A program made the position numbers and the translations under genes. A stretch of 7,292 bases of DNA. Source: Gammaproteobacteria bacterium. Lineage in GTDB: Bacteria; Pseudomonadota; Gammaproteobacteria; SURF-13. Of the stretch, positions 1 to 7,292 are shown one piece after another. The notes below the pieces were generated by a model that saw only the letters and a program-made list of their open reading frames with translations, had not been told where the DNA came from and searched no databases. Position 1 is the first letter of the stretch. Each line of letters opens with the position of its first letter. The stretch covers positions 1 to 7,292 of the forward strand of contig JAMDBH010000006.1 in NCBI GenBank assembly GCA_023487615.1. Reading direction: 5' to 3'.

Positions 1-338
1 TAGGGATTGCCGAGGCCAAGACATGGACGGCGCATCCCTGCGCGAGTTTCGCCAACCTGTTTGCGTTTGCGGCGGTGAGATGGACTATTTCATTGCCTGA
101 GACAGCCATCGGTTACCTGTGGGCGTGGGTGGAAAACCAGACAACGGCCGCAATGAAATTGATACCATTGGGGCAAAGCGCCGGCCAGCGACTGCTCTCC
201 CGTGCCATCGAGATCATCCCCGCAGCGGTGCAACAGGGATTGCAGATTGCCGATGACGAAATCGGCACGTTTGCGCCGGGACTGGCCCTGGCGAGCGCCC
301 GCCACGAAACCCAATACACCCGCTTGTTTCGCTCATGA
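1..338 (+). CDS. ureF: Urease accessory protein UreF (3' part; start lies before the window)
   Basis: UreF works in the cytoplasm with UreD/UreH and UreG to load nickel into the urease active site; in the family it modulates the UreG GTPase within the UreDFG complex. The frame is open from base 3 with no start of its own in the window, so this is the C-terminal part only: 111 residues, against roughly 220-240 for a usual UreF. Family features visible are the helical stretch with [10 protein letters not shown], then [17 protein letters not shown], and the very typical C-terminal end [18 protein letters not shown] at 75 opens a shorter frame, but the family homology runs upstream of it, so it is not the real start. 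The stop overlaps the ureG start (ATGA, 335-338), which implies translational coupling in one operon. Identification is firm; only the missing N-terminus is unknown. Confidence 0.95.
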
Positions 339-961
339 GCGCCATTTCCACACGCACCATAAAGTCACCGTTACGGATTGGGGTGGGCGGCCCGGTCGGC
401 TCCGGCAAGACCGCGCTGGTGGACGCCCTGTGCAAGCGGCTACGGGAGCGTTATCAGATCGCCGTCGTCACCAACGACATCTATACTTACGAGGACGCCC
501 AGTTTTTAATCCGCAGCGGCGCGCTGGCCGAGGAGCGCATCATCGGCGTAGAGACCGGCGGCTGCCCGCACACCGCCATCCGCGAAGACGCCTCGATGAA
601 TCTCGCGGCGGTAGCGCAGTTGAGTCAACGCTTTCCCGATCTCGACATGGTGATGGTGGAGAGCGGCGGCGATAATCTCGCGGCCACCTTCAGTCCTGAA
701 CTTTCCGACCTCACGCTCTACGTCATTGATGTCGCGGCGGGCGACAAGATCCCGCGCAAGGGCGGCCCCGGCATCACCAAGTCCGATTTATTAATCATCA
801 ACAAGATTGATTTGGCCCCTTACGTCGGAGCCTCGCTCGAAGTCATGGAGCGCGACGCGCGCAAGATGCGCGGCGAACGGCCCTTTATGTTCACCAATCT
901 CAAAACCGGCGCAGGGCTGGCGGAGGTCGAAGTCTTCATCATCAAACAGGGGCTACTCTAA
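335..961 (+). CDS. ureG: Urease accessory GTPase UreG (nickel insertion)
   Basis: UreG is the cytoplasmic SIMIBI-class GTPase that delivers nickel to apo-urease, powered by GTP hydrolysis, together with UreE, UreF and UreD/H. The 208 residues are the usual family length and the protein is complete. Visible motifs: P-loop GPVGSGKT (residues 19-26), the [10 protein letters not shown] segment (46-55), [14 protein letters not shown] (72-85) containing the nickel-binding Cys-Pro-His at 77-79, [15 protein letters not shown] (109-123), and the guanine-specificity motif NKID (156-159). The C-terminus, ending in KQGLL, resembles the family's usual end. The start ATG lies inside the ureF stop (4-base overlap), so translation is probably coupled. 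No key residue is missing. It is the last gene of the urease cluster here; the next gene on this strand starts 346 bases downstream under a separate promoter. Confidence 0.98.
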
Positions 962-1111: not shown

Positions 1112-1131
1112 GATCCTCCATCTTATTTTTG

Positions 1132-1148
1132 TGCCTCAAATAAGTGCA
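1132..1148 (+). promoter_or_regulatory. NtrC-like enhancer site 1a (upstream of the porin gene)
   Basis: TGCCTCAAATAAGTGCA matches 9 of the 12 fixed positions of the NtrC consensus TGCACC-N5-GGTGCA. Its centre lies about 131 bases before the predicted sigma-54 start site, a normal enhancer position. It is paired with a second site 31 bp downstream, about three helical turns, so both face the same side of the DNA. Confidence 0.55.
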
Positions 1149-1162
1149 TTGGGCACGCGTTG

Positions 1163-1179
1163 TGCCTCATAAAGGTGCG
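1163..1179 (+). promoter_or_regulatory. NtrC-like enhancer site 1b (upstream of the porin gene)
   Basis: TGCCTCATAAAGGTGCG matches 9 of the 12 fixed positions of TGCACC-N5-GGTGCA, with a perfect GGTGC right half. Its centre is about 100 bases before the predicted start site. It also resembles site 1a (both begin GTGCCTCA when the preceding base is included), so the two form an imperfect direct repeat with a 31-bp period. Confidence 0.6.
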
Positions 1180-1222
1180 CCGGAGCCCTCGTTGATTCGC
1201 CTTGGAAATTCCTAACTTCTTA

Positions 1223-1236
1223 TTTTACATATAAAA
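1223..1236. repeat. AT-rich near-palindrome before the first -24/-12 promoter
   Basis: TTTTACATATAAAA is symmetric at all but one base pair. It sits between the NtrC-like pair and the -24 element. A perfect palindrome of the same length occupies the equivalent place at 2506-2519. It could be a bendable or protein-bound spacer, but no known factor consensus is clearly matched. Confidence 0.4.
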
Positions 1237-1244
1237 GATTAACA

Positions 1245-1259
1245 TGGCATGGAAGCTGC
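1245..1259 (+). promoter_or_regulatory. Sigma-54 (-24/-12) promoter of the porin gene
   Basis: TGGCATGGAAGCTGC fits the sigma-54 consensus TGGCACG-N4-TTGC. The invariant GG (1246-1247) and GC (1258-1259) have exactly the required spacing. The predicted start is near 1271, giving a leader of about 37 bases before the ATG at 1308. Upstream NtrC-like sites at about -131 and -100 complete a standard nitrogen-regulated layout. The -12 element has C for the first T of TTGC. Confidence 0.8.
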
Positions 1260-1307
1260 GGAGTTTTAGCTCGATATTTATAACAACTTGATCTGGAGAC
1301 TTAAATC

Positions 1308-2399
1308 ATGAACTCAAAGAAATTAAAACTGCCCGTTTTCGCCTGTGTCTTAGCTCTAAGCCCTCTGCTTGCTGGCGCTGACGAGGCCGCCCCCGAAGAA
1401 GCCTCCGATTTTAGCCTCTCGGGTTACATAGATAGTTCCTATTATTATCTAACGGGCTCGGGCACCTTTACCAGCGGTGTGCCCACGCGTGCCTTTGATA
1501 GGAAACGTGAAAACCGCTTTGACCTACAAACCTTTGCGGTTACGGCATCTTATTTGCCTAAACAGGGCTTGGGCGGGCTGCTGGACTTGAATTTCGGCAA
1601 CGACGCCGATGTGATCGCGCCGTTTCATACCCCCGCCAATGATCAATTCGACATCCAGGCGGGCTACCTGCAATATGCTACCGGCCCGTTCACGGCTATC
1701 GCGGGCAAGTTTGTCACCCTGGCCGGCGCGGAGGTTATTAAAAGCCCCAGTGATGTGAATTTCAGCCGTTCCATTTTGTTTGGCTATGCCATTCCCTTTT
1801 CTCACACCGGGGCACGTCTAAGCTATGCCTTGAATGACAAGATGAGCTTTATGATCGGTCTGAACAAGGGCTGGGACGTGTTACAAGATAACAACTCCTC
1901 TAACACCATGGAGCTCGGCGCCTCACTGGGGCTTGCCGATTCCTTCACCCTGTTCCTGGACGCATACAGCGGCAAAGAACCCGGCAACACCGGAATCCAG
2001 GGCACGCGTAATTTGATTGATATGGTAGGTACTTATACTGTCAGCGACGCCTTGAGTTTGGTGCTCAACTATGACTACGCCAAACAGAGCGATGCTATCG
2101 ACGCAGGCCAGGATGCCACCTGGAGTGGCTTGGCCGCTTATGCCAATTATAAATTCAATGATAAATGGCGCCTCAGTTTGCGCGGCGAATACTTTGACGA
2201 TAAAGACGGCTATCGTACCGGTGTGGCCCAAAAGTGGAAGGAAGCCACCCTTACCTTGGCGTACCTGCCGAATGAGTCATTGGAATTCCGCGGCGAGGTG
2301 CGCGCTGATAAGTCGGATAAGAACGCTTTCCTCAATACGGACGGGACCACCGATAGTACACAGCGTTCCTTTGGGATAGAGGCCCTCATCAAGTTTTAG
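1308..2399 (+). CDS. Outer-membrane porin, BBP2/OmpL-like; probable urea or small-amide channel
   Basis: The protein is 363 residues and complete. It starts with a signal peptide (basic MNSKKLKL, hydrophobic core, likely cut after AGA at residue 24). The mature part is rich in alternating polar/aromatic strands and ends in a terminal Phe (ALIKF), the usual mark of BAM-inserted barrels. The stretch GKF at 133-135 through NFSRSILFGYAIPFSHTG (151-168) is typical of the putative beta-barrel porin-2 family (PF07642). ATG at 1308 has GGAG nine bases upstream. Predicted control is by sigma-54 and NtrC. The role as an outer-membrane path for urea is inferred from its place before urtA; Methylophilus methylotrophus has a comparable amide/urea-induced porin (FmdC) with an amide ABC transporter. 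Its own promoter and the fresh one at 2527 suggest it can be expressed separately from the next gene. Base composition looks more AT-rich than in the urt genes. Confidence 0.8.
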   Translation: MNSKKLKLPVFACVLALSPLLAGADEAAPEEASDFSLSGYIDSSYYYLTGSGTFTSGVPTRAFDRKRENRFDLQTFAVTASYLPKQGLGGLLDLNFGNDADVIAPFHTPANDQFDIQAGYLQYATGPFTAIAGKFVTLAGAEVIKSPSDVNFSRSILFGYAIPFSHTGARLSYALNDKMSFMIGLNKGWDVLQDNNSSNTMELGASLGLADSFTLFLDAYSGKEPGNTGIQGTRNLIDMVGTYTVSDALSLVLNYDYAKQSDAIDAGQDATWSGLAAYANYKFNDKWRLSLRGEYFDDKDGYRTGVAQKWKEATLTLAYLPNESLEFRGEVRADKSDKNAFLNTDGTTDSTQRSFGIEALIKF

Positions 2400-2413
2400 C
2401 CTTTGCCCCTTTG

Positions 2414-2430
2414 CGTTTCAAATAAGTGCA
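2414..2430 (+). promoter_or_regulatory. NtrC-like enhancer site 2a (upstream of the TIGR02001 gene)
   Basis: CGTTTCAAATAAGTGCA keeps a good right half (GTGCA) but a poor left half: 7 of 12 fixed positions of TGCACC-N5-GGTGCA. It is the in-register copy of site 1a, exactly 1282 bases downstream of it, and lies about 131 bases before the predicted start site. On sequence alone it would be marginal; position and pairing raise its likelihood. Confidence 0.4.
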
Positions 2431-2444
2431 TTGCGCCTTAGCGA

Positions 2445-2461
2445 GGCATCTAGATGGTGCA
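2445..2461 (+). promoter_or_regulatory. NtrC-like enhancer site 2b (upstream of the TIGR02001 gene)
   Basis: GGCATCTAGATGGTGCA matches 10 of the 12 fixed positions of TGCACC-N5-GGTGCA, the best of the four sites, with a perfect right half. Its centre is about 100 bases before the predicted start site and 31 bp from site 2a. It contains the exact palindrome CATCTAGATG (2447-2456). Confidence 0.65.
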
Positions 2462-2505
2462 CTGGAACCCCCATTAATTCTGGCTGTTACCACCTAACCG
2501 TTTAT

Positions 2506-2519
2506 TTTTCATATGAAAA
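2506..2519. repeat. Perfect 14-bp AT-rich palindrome before the second -24/-12 promoter
   Basis: TTTTCATATGAAAA is a perfect inverted repeat seven bases before the -24 element. It corresponds to the near-palindrome at 1223-1236. It may be an operator or a bend; no known binding protein can be named from the sequence. Confidence 0.5.
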
Positions 2520-2526
2520 TTTTTCA

Positions 2527-2541
2527 TGGCACGAAAGCTGC
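2527..2541 (+). promoter_or_regulatory. Sigma-54 (-24/-12) promoter of the TIGR02001 gene and probably urtA
   Basis: TGGCACGAAAGCTGC has a perfect TGGCACG -24 element and CTGC for the TTGC -12 element, with GG (2528-2529) and GC (2540-2541) at the required spacing. The predicted start is near 2553. Because only 39 bases without a terminator separate the following gene from urtA, this promoter probably drives both. It fits the consensus better than the copy at 1245. Confidence 0.85.
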
Positions 2542-2589
2542 CTAGCTCCAGTTCGATGTTTACAACAACTCGATCCGGAGACTTAAATC

Positions 2590-3393
2590 ATGAACTCAAA
2601 GAAATTAAAACTGCCCATTTTGGGACTGGCTACAGTGCTTGGCGCCGCCTCATCCCTGATGCTGTCCGGCACCGTGCGTGCGGATTTAACCGTTGAGACG
2701 GAAAATAAATCCACGACGGTGACTCCCGACCCTGCGTCCCCACACAAGCTCACCGGCAATATCGGCGTCTATTCCAAATACATTCTGCGTGGCATTACTA
2801 ACACGCCGGAAAACAACGAGCCCTCTATCCAAGGAGGCGTGGATTACACTCATGCAAGCGGATTCTATCTGGGCTATTGGGGATCCAACCTGGGTTACGC
2901 GGATCCAGGCAAATCCAACGGTTTTGAAAATGATTTCTATGGCGGCTACGCGGGCAGCGCAGGGCCGGTCACTTATTCCATAGGTCTCATTAAGTACATC
3001 TACCTCCATCTGGACAACTTTGATGGCCTGGAGGCGGTGGGTACTGTCGGTACCGGACCGGTCACCTTGGGCTTCAAATATTTGACCGACGACGTGGTGT
3101 GGGGTAATAAAGGCGACACCTATTGGACACTGGGTTACAAAACCGCCCTGCCGATGGATTTCAGCCTTGGCGCTACCTTGGGCTATTACGTCTATAAGGA
3201 CAGCGGGAAATACATCGCCAGCACCGTTGAGAATTCGGCCTTCCGCCATCTCGACCTCAACCTCTCGCACCCTATAGGCAATACTGGCGCAACGGCAGGC
3301 ATCACCTATGTGGTCGGCGGCAAGGATCGCAACGGCGTGAATCAAGACAACGATGTGGTCCTCAACATCGGTTATGGCTTTGATTTCAAATAG
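2590..3393 (+). CDS. TIGR02001 (Gcw_chp, PF09694) family outer-membrane protein
   Basis: The protein is 267 residues with a signal peptide (MNSKKLKLP start, likely cut after VRA at residue 31). The family's hallmark segment runs from about residue 58 to 101: YSKYILRG (61-68), EPSIQGGVDYTH (77-88) and SGFYLGYWGSNL (90-101). Alternating aromatic strands follow to the end, GYGFDFK, consistent with a small outer-membrane barrel. The family is common in Proteobacteria but has no established molecular function; from memory, members often lie near nitrogen genes such as glnK-amtB, which would fit here. ATG at 2590 has GGAG nine bases upstream. It shares its first nine residues and its whole control region with the porin at 1308, but the rest is unrelated to it. 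It sits 39 bases before urtA with no terminator between, so the two are probably co-transcribed. A role in urea or ammonium passage is inference. Confidence 0.85.
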   Translation: MNSKKLKLPILGLATVLGAASSLMLSGTVRADLTVETENKSTTVTPDPASPHKLTGNIGVYSKYILRGITNTPENNEPSIQGGVDYTHASGFYLGYWGSNLGYADPGKSNGFENDFYGGYAGSAGPVTYSIGLIKYIYLHLDNFDGLEAVGTVGTGPVTLGFKYLTDDVVWGNKGDTYWTLGYKTALPMDFSLGATLGYYVYKDSGKYIASTVENSAFRHLDLNLSHPIGNTGATAGITYVVGGKDRNGVNQDNDVVLNIGYGFDFK

Positions 3394-3432: not shown

Positions 3433-4689
3433 ATGTTCCATAAAACATTGTTGACAAGCAGCGCGGCCGTATTCGCCGCGCTGCTGACTACATTGGCCGC
3501 CGGAACAGCAGTGGCCGAGGAGCCGCCGATCAAGGTCGGTATCCTGCACTCGCTGTCCGGCACCATGGCGATCAGCGAGACGTCGTTGAAAGACGTCGCG
3601 CTGATGACCATCGAGGAGATCAACAGTCAGGGCGGTGTATTGGGCCGCATGATTGAACCGGTGGTGGTGGATCCCGCCTCTAACTGGCCGCTGTTCGCGG
3701 AGAAGGCGCGCCAGTTGATTTCCCAGGACAAGGTCGCGGTGGTGTTCGGCTGCTGGACCTCGGTGTCGCGCAAATCGGTGCTGCCGGTGTTCGAGGAACT
3801 GAACGGCTTGCTGTTTTATCCAGTGCAATACGAAGGCGAGGAGCTTTCGCAAAACGTGTTCTACACCGGGGCGGCGCCGAATCAGCAGGCCATCCCGGCG
3901 GTGGAATATCTGATGGGTGAAGAGGGTGGCGGCGCCAAGCGCTTCTATCTGCTCGGCACCGATTATGTCTATCCGCGCACCACCAACAAAATCCTGCGCG
4001 CCTTCCTGAAGTCCAAGGGCGTGGCGGAGAAGGACATCGAAGAGGTGTATACGCCGTTCGGGCACAGCGACTATCAGACCATCGTCGGCAACATCAAGAA
4101 GTTCTCATCCGGCGGCAAGACCGCGGTGATCTCCACCATCAACGGCGATTCCAACGTGCCGTTCTACAAAGAGCTGGGTAACGCGGGCTTGAAGGCCACC
4201 GACGTGCCGGTCATCGCCTTCTCGGTGGGTGAAGAAGAGCTGCGCGGCATAGACACCAAACCGCTGGTCGGTCATCTCGCGGCATGGAATTATTTCATGT
4301 CTGTCAAGAGCCCGGAAAACGACGCCTTTATAGCCAAGTGGAAGGCCTATGTGAAGAAGAATAATTTGCCCGGCGGCGACAAGCGCGTCACCAATGATCC
4401 GATGGAGGCCACCTATGTCGGCATCCACATGTGGGCCAACGCGGTCAAAAAGGCGGGCAGCACCGATGTGGACGCGGTGCGCAAGGCGATGGCGGGTCAG
4501 ACCTTCAAGGCGCCGTCCGGCTTCGTGTTGAAGATGGATGAGACCAATCATCATCTGTGGAAACCGGTGATGATCGGCGAGGTGCAGGACAACGGCCAGT
4601 TCGACATCGTCTGGAAGACCAGCGGGCCGATCCGCGCCCAGCCCTGGAGTCCCTACATTCCCGGCAACGAGAAGAAATCAGACAAGTAA
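3433..4689 (+). CDS. urtA: Urea ABC transporter, periplasmic urea-binding protein UrtA
   Basis: UrtA captures urea in the periplasm and hands it to the UrtBC permease. The 418 residues form a complete protein of the expected size, starting with a signal peptide (likely cut after AVA at residue 28) and then KVGILHSLSGTMAISE (34-49), the typical beginning of the UrtA/AmiC-like branch of the Leu/Ile/Val-binding family. Other family stretches are FGCWTSVSRKSVLPVFE, LFYPVQYEG, INGDSNVPFYKELGN, HLAAWNYF and NHHLWKPVMIGE. A short-chain amide binder of the FmdD type is the main alternative, but adjacent urease genes favour urea. ATG at 3433 has AAGAGG six bases upstream. A strong hairpin terminator lies between it and urtB, probably making the binding protein more abundant than the membrane parts. 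It is likely expressed from the sigma-54 promoter at 2527. Confidence 0.96.
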   Translation: MFHKTLLTSSAAVFAALLTTLAAGTAVAEEPPIKVGILHSLSGTMAISETSLKDVALMTIEEINSQGGVLGRMIEPVVVDPASNWPLFAEKARQLISQDKVAVVFGCWTSVSRKSVLPVFEELNGLLFYPVQYEGEELSQNVFYTGAAPNQQAIPAVEYLMGEEGGGAKRFYLLGTDYVYPRTTNKILRAFLKSKGVAEKDIEEVYTPFGHSDYQTIVGNIKKFSSGGKTAVISTINGDSNVPFYKELGNAGLKATDVPVIAFSVGEEELRGIDTKPLVGHLAAWNYFMSVKSPENDAFIAKWKAYVKKNNLPGGDKRVTNDPMEATYVGIHMWANAVKKAGSTDVDAVRKAMAGQTFKAPSGFVLKMDETNHHLWKPVMIGEVQDNGQFDIVWKTSGPIRAQPWSPYIPGNEKKSDK

Positions 4690-6383: not shown

Positions 6384-7292
6384 ATGCGCCGAGTGATGGA
6401 ATTGTACGGGACGCAGGGTTGGCTGATGCTGTGTGGCGCGGCCCTTCTGGTTATGGTCATCATCCCGCTGCTTAATCTGGCGTTGCCGCCGGGGCACGTG
6501 CTCCATGTGCCGGACCACATCGTGACCTTGTTGGGCAAGATCATGTGCTACGCCATCGTGGCGCTCGCTATGGACTTGATCTGGGGCTACACCGGGATTT
6601 TAAGCTTAGGGCACGGCCTGTTTTTCGCCTTGGGCGGCTATGCGATGGGCATGCATCTGATGCGCGAGATCGGGCGCGACGGTGTCTATGGCAGCGATCT
6701 GCCGGACTTCATGGTGTTTCTGGACTGGAAGGAACTGCCTTGGTACTGGCTGGGCTCGGATCACTTCGGCTTCGCCCTGCTGATGGTAGTCCTCGCCCCC
6801 GGCCTGCTTGCACTGGTATTCGGTTATTTCGCCTTCCGCTCGCGGGTGAAGGGCGTGTATTTCGCCATCATCACCCAGGCCCTTACGTTCGCCTTCATGC
6901 TGCTGTTCTTCAGAAACGAGACCGGCTTCGGCGGGAACAATGGCTTTACCGATTTCAAGCGCATCTTGGGATTCCCGCTTGCCGACCCTTCCACCAAGGT
7001 CGCCTTGTTCATAATCACCGCCTTTACACTGCTCGCCGTATTATTGCTCTGCCGATTTATCGTTTACTCCAAGCTGGGCCGGGTGCTCACCGCCATCCGT
7101 GACGCCGAGAGCCGCTTGATGTTTTCCGGTTACGACCCACTGCGCTACAAGCTGTTTGTGTGGACCTTGTCGGCGGTGTTGTGCGGCATCGCCGGAGCCT
7201 TATATGTACCGCAGGTGGGCATCATAAATCCGAGCGAGATGTCGCCGGCCAACTCCATTGAGATCGCCGTATGGGTCGCCCTGGGCGGGCGC
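6384..7292 (+). CDS. urtC: Urea ABC transporter permease UrtC (3' end outside the window)
   Basis: UrtC is the second inner-membrane permease, in the LivM branch, and pairs with UrtB. The frame is open from ATG 6384 to the window end: 303 residues, against roughly 350-380 for the full protein, so the C-terminus is missing. Visible features: a hydrophobic first helix (13-34), the family segment GYTGILSLGHGLFFALGG (68-85), a UrtC-type insert with acidic and aromatic residues (about 95-126), further helices, the motif ETGFGGNNGFTDFK (178-191), and the cytoplasmic loop KLGRVLTAIRDAESR. It begins four bases after the urtB stop with GAGAG upstream, so it is in the same operon and probably translationally coupled. 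Genes for the UrtD and UrtE ATPases would be expected next, beyond the window. Confidence 0.96.
   Translation, partial: MRRVMELYGTQGWLMLCGAALLVMVIIPLLNLALPPGHVLHVPDHIVTLLGKIMCYAIVALAMDLIWGYTGILSLGHGLFFALGGYAMGMHLMREIGRDGVYGSDLPDFMVFLDWKELPWYWLGSDHFGFALLMVVLAPGLLALVFGYFAFRSRVKGVYFAIITQALTFAFMLLFFRNETGFGGNNGFTDFKRILGFPLADPSTKVALFIITAFTLLAVLLLCRFIVYSKLGRVLTAIRDAESRLMFSGYDPLRYKLFVWTLSAVLCGIAGALYVPQVGIINPSEMSPANSIEIAVWVALGGR

Follow-up and report, generated by a model that had tools for sequence, protein, structure and literature searches.

Two unrelated outer-membrane barrel genes in a gammaproteobacterial urea locus begin with copies of one, probably TorF-type, control region and signal-peptide start

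How do two adjacent genes, whose products show no detectable homology beyond their leaders, come to begin with the same predicted promoter and the same nine codons? The question is raised by contig JAMDBH010000006.1 of a Gammaproteobacteria bacterium (assembly GCA_023487615.1). Its entire 7,292 bases (hereafter "the window") carry, on a single strand, a partial ureF, ureG, a BBP2-family porin gene, a gene for a TorF-family putative porin (torF), urtA, urtB, and a partial urtC (Table 1). We favor, with a probability of about 0.7, the reading that a single TorF-type module of control region plus leader is present here twice, so that the BBP2 gene would be a chimera carrying the control region and signal-peptide start of a TorF gene. 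More generally, our best reading of the gene neighborhoods is that unrelated barrels may be interchangeable in slots of NtrC/sigma-54 type.

We compared the window with itself at 6,700 offsets. Copies 1127–1334 and 2409–2616 share 154 of their 208 bases; the offset is 1282 throughout, and no indel interrupts the match. The next-best 208-base stretch reached 90 identities and the maxima averaged 69.7 (standard deviation 6.0); a chance match is excluded. Around the ends of the module, identity at the same offset falls to 14/56 over positions 1345–1400 and 5/13 over 1120–1132. Within it, identity is uneven: 72/113 upstream (1132–1244), 13/16 in the predicted sigma-54 element, and 60/65 in the start region (1270–1334), where all five differences are transitions, as against 19 of 41 in the upstream part. 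From these different identity and transition shares, the upstream part of the module looks old, and its start younger or more constrained. The start region includes 40 consecutive identical bases covering GGAG, the ATG, and codons 1–9 (MNSKKLKLP), in which all synonymous sites are identical; the expected number of such runs in 203 positions is ~0.0003 at 74% identity and 0.0013 at 77%. The original prediction, made from the letters of the window, had described a ~200-bp repeat with a constant offset of 1282, no net indel, 40 identical bases, and a diverged middle. This description holds up well, except that similarity begins at about 1127 and 2409 instead of at 1132 in the first copy. An assembly artefact is unlikely, given the 26% difference between the copies and the listing of the BBP2 protein for two contigs. 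Separately, the presumed first 65 transcribed bases (1270–1334 and 2552–2616) could mark a recent conversion or a shared post-transcriptional element.

Table 1 Features of the window and of two related loci. Positions refer to the window unless another locus is named; control elements are predictions.
Feature	Position	Strand	Remarks
ureG, left edge of the porin island	335..961	+	TIGR00101; high DNA identity to related locus L004 stops at ~951
Module copy 1, NtrC-like sites to BBP2 codon 9	1127..1334	+	154/208 identical to 2409-2616
Predicted NtrC-like dyad TGCCTCAAATAAGTGCA	1132..1148	+	Score 9.1 of 11.6
Predicted NtrC-like dyad TGCCTCATAAAGGTGCG, 31 bp after the 1132-1148 dyad	1163..1179	+	Score 8.5
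Predicted sigma-54 -24/-12 element TGGCATGGAAGCTGCG, copy 1	1245..1260	+	Score 12.7 of 14.8
Identical 40-base block, copy 1: ribosome-binding site GGAG 1295-1298, ATG 1308, nine codons MNSKKLKLP	1295..1334	+	
BBP2-family (PF07642) porin, 363 amino acids; read as a chimera with TorF-type codons 1-9 and BBP2 from codon 10	1308..2399	+	Pfam E 6.4e-68
Module copy 2, before and into TorF; starts ~10 bases past the BBP2 stop	2409..2616	+	Match to copy 1
Weak predicted NtrC-like dyad CGTTTCAAATAAGTGCA, copy 2	2414..2430	+	Score 7.5 of 11.6
Predicted NtrC-like dyad GGCATCTAGATGGTGCA, 31 bp after the weak dyad	2445..2461	+	Score 9.5
AT-rich palindrome TTTTCATATGAAAA, perfect here but not in copy 1	2506..2519	.	
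Predicted sigma-54 -24/-12 element TGGCACGAAAGCTGCC, copy 2	2527..2542	+	Score 13.4 of 14.8, highest + strand score in the window
Identical 40-base block, copy 2: GGAG 2577-2580, ATG 2590, nine codons	2577..2616	+	
TorF/TIGR02001/Gcw_chp (PF09694) putative porin, 267 amino acids; presumed native owner of the module	2590..3393	+	
urtA, right edge of the porin island	3433..4689	+	TIGR03407; high DNA identity to L004 resumes inside, at ~3527
Third-kind barrel-like gene before urtA, related locus L129	L129 6416-7600	-	Sigma-54 element
Third-kind barrel-like gene before urtA, related locus L130	L130 207-1364	+	Porin_O_P match, sigma-54 element

After codon nine the two proteins belong to different barrel families, BBP2 and TIGR02001, as had been proposed. 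The BBP2 protein scores 229.9 bits against PF07642 (gathering cut-off 26.2) over residues 35–363. The TorF protein scores 99.2 bits against PF09694 and 92.7 bits against TIGR02001 (curated cut-off 47.15), a family that carries the NCBI name "TorF family putative porin". Homology along the length of the two proteins was looked for and none was found between their mature parts: a comparison of family profiles gave an hhalign probability of 0.2%, and the single significant BLASTP match begins at the shared leader. On this evidence a simple tandem gene duplication is rejected. Structure models predicted from the family alignments comprise 16 strands for BBP2 (mean predicted local distance difference test score, pLDDT, 75) and 12 for TorF (mean pLDDT 79). 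In Foldseek, the BBP2 model matched porins of both the general and the specific type, OprP and DcaP among them, with E values as low as 1.8e-14. The TorF model gave weaker matches, the best at E 1.5e-5, to barrels that include Tsx, OmpG, NanC, and KdgM; a sequence search of solved structures returned no match for either family. The BBP2 protein can be called a putative pore, from the resemblance of its 16-strand model to solved porins. GC content at third codon positions is 0.62 for BBP2 and 0.64 for TorF; the ure and urt genes range from 0.69 to 0.81, a difference in keeping with a separate history of the porin genes. A plasmid search with BBP2 gave nine records, the best at 44% identity.

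Upstream of both starts, sigma-54 and NtrC-like sites were scored against general consensus strings. Each predicted sigma-54 element has the -24 GG and -12 GC dinucleotides with 10 bases between them, and ATGGCATGGAAGCTGC also stands before TorF in the related locus L004. For the predicted NtrC-like dyads, a spacing of 31 bp scores best in copy 1, while in copy 2 a 31-bp pair with one weak site (17.0) and a 41-bp spacing (17.1) score about alike. NtrC-like sites and a sigma-54 promoter had been proposed for each copy; a sigma-54 element is predicted here in each, with NtrC-like dyads 31 bp apart of which the upstream one in copy 2 is weak. The AT-rich palindrome likewise proposed for both is perfect in copy 2 only. 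No integration host factor (IHF) consensus was found between the NtrC-like and sigma-54 sites of either copy. The same elements were scored in relatives, using the 40 TorF upstream regions of at least 150 bases (start codons set by a simple rule; two shorter regions and the distant loci L040–L043 excluded): a sigma-54 element scoring ≥12.4 occurred in 35 of these, versus 6.5% of random 250-base stretches from the same loci. Upstream regions of the two window genes, 4 BBP2 genes, and 40 TorF genes (46 in total) were compared for the spacing of paired NtrC-like dyads, and 30–32 bp was best in 28; with equal odds for each of the 44 spacings between 18 and 61, the expected number is about 3. A spacing of 30–32 bp corresponds to about three helical turns. 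By these motif and spacing tests the window has the predicted control architecture of its relatives, and a control region of the nitrogen (NtrC/sigma-54) type is supported, less clearly so for the paired dyads of copy 2.

Which of the two genes is the likely owner of the shared leader can be approached from homologue starts. Among the 120 TorF homologues listed of 1007, one (P0002) begins with MNSKKLKLP and has a whole signal peptide like that of the window TorF, and another (P0004) has a similar start, most of which is shared. The corresponding BBP2 set comprised 120 of 2322, including the window's own protein; among the other 119, none has this start. From codon 10 onward, we read the signal peptide of the window BBP2, as aligned, as resembling BBP2 leaders. 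Because of these starts and this resemblance, we read the BBP2 gene as having a control region and a signal-peptide start of TorF origin. TorF is thus the probable owner of the leader, and its capture by the BBP2 gene is probable.

The module itself does not seem to travel widely. The 40-base block has two copies in the window, and a search with the first 40 BBP2 residues, in which 17 candidates were scored, brought back no protein but that of the window. Searched as a degenerate codon pattern, MNSKKLKLP matched in 0 of 185 related genomes, none of which is known to carry this start, and the leader 39-mer was absent from viral contigs. A comparison of control regions within genomes, using shuffles, gave z = 62 for the sigma-54 pair of the window and z = 2.3, 1.0, −0.4, and 1.2 for pairs in four other genomes. 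The shared module is thus, as far as visible, particular to this lineage. The suggestion that the cassette might be a wider device for recruiting surface proteins to a regulon is not supported by these searches. A common short repeat, which the original prediction had named as the finding that would undo it, was not seen beyond the two copies in the window, in the related genomes, or in the viral contigs; the same data leave a mobile repeat or a general secretion cassette unsupported.

The genomic slots in which the barrels stand were read as well. Of the 185 genomes surrounding the closest relative, 12 had BBP2 matches; a search of 369 genomes from the whole class yielded seven at E ≤ 1e-40, five of them shared with the 12. 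From the 16 places found (13 + 3), the nine strongest contexts were read, the weaker matches L050–L056 being excluded. In eight of the nine (L057–L059, L061, L062, L096–L098), the BBP2 relative, 32–54% identical to the window BBP2, stands directly before glnK-amtB. Upstream DNA was available for seven of these glnK-linked genes, and six have a sigma-54 element scoring ≥12.4 together with top dyads 31–32 bp apart, e.g., TGCACCATCGTGGTGCA in L057. Since its relatives head glnK-amtB clusters with sites of their own, BBP2 was probably not newly brought into a nitrogen regulon. This divides another earlier proposal, that a barrel gene had been placed under an existing nitrogen-regulated promoter: capture of the signal-peptide start is probable, but a new entry into the regulon is disfavored by these neighborhoods.

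TorF occupies the same kind of position. In L017 it lies directly before glnK-amtB, with a predicted sigma-54 element and paired dyads, and among 86 TorF-bearing genomes at least 39 have TorF within 900 bases before glnK, a lower bound in which the listed glnK matches include GlnB-type paralogues. Among the matches listed, TorF precedes a strong urtA match (E ≤ 1e-140) in 6 of the 86, BBP2 precedes glnK in 5 of the 12 BBP2 genomes and urtA in none, and the sets of genomes with glnK-linked TorF and glnK-linked BBP2 do not overlap. When checked with profiles, the best 30 glnK-type loci comprised 12 with TorF, 3 with BBP2, 15 with neither, and none with both. Among the best 30 urtA loci, TorF lay no more than 1.5 kb away in 7, in one of them divergently, and BBP2 was absent from all. 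A scan of genome contigs by TorF alignment found 43 loci, in 21 of which ureG, TorF, and urtA follow in this order with no other window-type genes between; in L001 and L004 the order is the same with further genes between. A third barrel-like kind of gene precedes urtA in genomes G038 and G184, whose UrtA is 82% identical to that of the window. The two proteins are 90.5% identical to each other and both genes have a sigma-54 element; the G038 protein scores 23.3 bits against Porin_O_P (cut-off 20.9), the G184 protein has no Pfam match. In G143, the gene at this position before urtA (L132) matched no Pfam family, and the stretch scanned there lacked a sigma-54 element. Judged from these neighborhoods, the wider phenomenon is the slot and not the cassette. 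Each of three barrels, TorF, BBP2, and a Porin_O_P-like one, is found heading urt or glnK-amtB loci, in most cases behind a control region of sigma-54 type. As far as could be seen, sharing of the module would be particular to this lineage, and alternation of barrels at the slot the widespread part.

The closest relative is L004, whose proteins are 95% (UreG), 91% (UrtA), 94% (UrtC), and 61% (TorF) identical to those of the window, and whose genome, covered for 1.7 Mb, gave no BBP2 match. DNA identity to L004 is high up to the ureG stop and again from ~3527 in urtA; between these points only part of torF aligns, at 66%. Since identity ends at ureG and resumes in urtA, the whole ureG–urtA interval was apparently exchanged in one of the two lineages. 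L004 also carries, at 1095–9172 between ureG and torF, an fmd-type cluster (formamidase, amide ATP-binding cassette transporter, and amidase), which makes the ureG–torF interval look like an insertion-prone slot for nitrogen genes, and glnK-amtB lies just past its urt genes. The signal-peptide part of urtA (3433–3526) gave no gapless alignment with L004 10682–10778, while the remaining urtA is ~86% identical at the DNA level. The exchange boundary seems to fall inside the urtA signal peptide, much as at BBP2 codon 9. A second relative, L001, has two TorF genes in one urea locus (669–1403 and 9935–10669), with their own sigma-54 elements and unrelated leaders, and one of them stands before a second urt-like gene set.

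Under the reading we prefer, a TorF-type 5′ module comprising paired NtrC sites, a sigma-54 promoter, a ribosome-binding site, and nine signal-peptide codons would exist in two copies, the copy leading torF being native and the other joined from codon 10 onward to a BBP2 body of the kind that heads glnK-amtB clusters. Under nitrogen limitation, phosphorylated NtrC would occupy the paired dyads and switch on the sigma-54 polymerase at each of the two promoters, and two different outer-membrane channels would then be made together with the urt urea transporter. The urt genes would probably be switched on too. The urtA start lies 39 bases past torF, and readthrough into urt is possible because no terminator-like site is listed on the + strand from the BBP2 stop to torF or from torF to urtA. 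BBP2 would still be exported, since the start of a signal peptide is interchangeable, and both channels may serve urea- or ammonium-related substrates. The near-identical start region is best explained by a more recent exchange or gene conversion there, or by a constraint on translation initiation.

Several observations weigh against this reading. The consensus strings are general ones and the dyads are imperfect. Five of the 40 TorF upstream regions (L027_8930, L028_8925, L029, L037, L038) lack a good sigma-54 site; the glnK-associated BBP2 of L062 and the BBP2 of L060, which is not near glnK, have neither a good sigma-54 nor a good NtrC-like site. Half of the best glnK-type loci (15/30) carry neither barrel, and only 7 of the best 30 urtA loci have TorF nearby. 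The control pair of G038 (z 2.3) was equaled by 10 of 200 shuffles. The direction of transfer is drawn from the protein N-termini of the closest relatives (P0001–P0004, P0122), and the listed sequence of P0122, the closest listed BBP2 (78%), begins within the signal peptide. The upstream DNA of relatives aligns in short stretches only, and the resemblance of the two copies to the L004 TorF promoter is confined to the surroundings of the sigma-54 core (z ~6). At its upstream dyad, 1132–1148, copy 1 shows a weak match to the control region of a native BBP2 gene (G015, L057; z 3.7, 1/200 shuffles), whereas copy 2 does not match it (z 0.6), which makes the upstream part of the module of less certain origin than the leader and leans slightly towards BBP2 owning that part. 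Finally, no TorF remnant was seen around the BBP2 gene.

Two routes could have led to the favored arrangement. In the first, a unit of module plus torF, lying in the ureG–urtA interval, was duplicated in tandem, and BBP2 later took the place of the body of the upstream torF. The two module copies would then be leftovers from an ordinary duplication of a gene. We regard this order of events as plausible, if short of an even chance. It would fit the two TorF genes with separate sigma-54 sites in the L001 urea locus, the two TorF genes close together in L027 and L028, and the greater divergence of the 5′ part of the module than of its start. It is weakened by the lack of any torF remnant seen before 2409, and by the L001 genes sharing neither leader nor promoter, so that duplication there would be older or one copy imported. 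In the second route, one recombination event placed a segment with BBP2 from codon 10 and another copy of the module into torF at codon 9, the segment perhaps coming from a neighboring glnK-amtB locus, and two torF genes never existed. The sharp junction at codon 9, the glnK-amtB genes just after urt in L004, which would provide a nearby source, and the readiness of the ureG–urtA interval to take insertions all speak for such an event. At 64% identity, however, the upstream parts of the modules have diverged further than one recent event would allow, unless later conversion renewed the 3′ part, and we hold this route only tentatively.

The remaining alternatives fare less well. It is improbable that the module, or its upstream part, first belonged to BBP2 and was borrowed by torF: the upstream dyad is stronger in copy 1 (9.1 versus 7.5) and the G015 match concerns that copy, but the start is missing from every other listed BBP2 homologue, while TorF homologues share either the whole signal peptide (P0002) or most of the start (P0004). 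Equally improbable is the possibility that selection for a common post-transcriptional control of both genes, e.g., through one small RNA or initiation element, maintains the ~65 near-identical, presumably transcribed bases, instead of conversion; their excess identity over the upstream part, the restriction of differences to transitions, and the identical synonymous sites would suit it, but the start is not conserved in the L004 and L001 TorF genes, no common RNA fold of the two messenger RNA starts was found, and recent conversion explains the near-identity equally well.

A broader proposal is that non-homologous channels replace each other at the head of NtrC/sigma-54 operons (urt, glnK-amtB) by recombining through the module that runs from promoter to signal peptide, the contig being an intermediate caught in the act. 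We consider this rather unlikely. If it were true, a few leader codons would suffice for exchange, and here both barrels would stand side by side with the fusion point still visible. The chimera favored above would itself suggest that a signal-peptide start can travel with its promoter, and that one regulatory module could serve two unrelated exported proteins. To our knowledge, few assignments are well founded for the outer-membrane channels through which urea and other small nitrogen compounds pass, and the slot pattern marks TorF, BBP2, and the Porin_O_P-like barrel as candidate nitrogen-scavenging porins.

Among open-licence full texts, considered by title and start of abstract, nothing was found describing this arrangement under TorF/TIGR02001, FmdC, nlmA, glnK/amtB porins, or promoter or signal-sequence capture. 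Known systems do offer partial counterparts. In Herbaspirillum seropedicae, nlmA-glnK-amtB shows NtrC-dependent expression and is upregulated under nitrogen limitation, by experiment (PMC3023670). There, the gene of a membrane-associated protein comes first in the glnK-amtB operon, as do the BBP2 relatives; NlmA is placed most probably in the periplasm, and the part of that source drawn on here describes no shared module or second barrel (PMC3023670). In Methylophilus methylotrophus, the fmdC porin belongs to the fmdCABDEF cluster (PMC10781810; fmdC-type porins also in PMC7078480 and PMC11064514). As far as the portions of these sources used here go, that porin sits with fmd genes, whereas the window porins sit with ure and urt genes, and L004 has an fmd-type cluster in the very slot concerned. 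The BBP2-glnK-amtB clusters share the barrel family of the window BBP2 and, in 6/7 scanned, have their own sigma-54 element and paired dyads; they differ in having other leaders where these were read, in standing before glnK and not in a urea locus, and in showing no nine-codon sharing with TorF. The gammaproteobacterial ureG–TorF–urtA loci (21/43) place TorF between ureG and urtA, with a sigma-54 element before it in most, as in the window, but have no BBP2 match and only one TorF between these genes.

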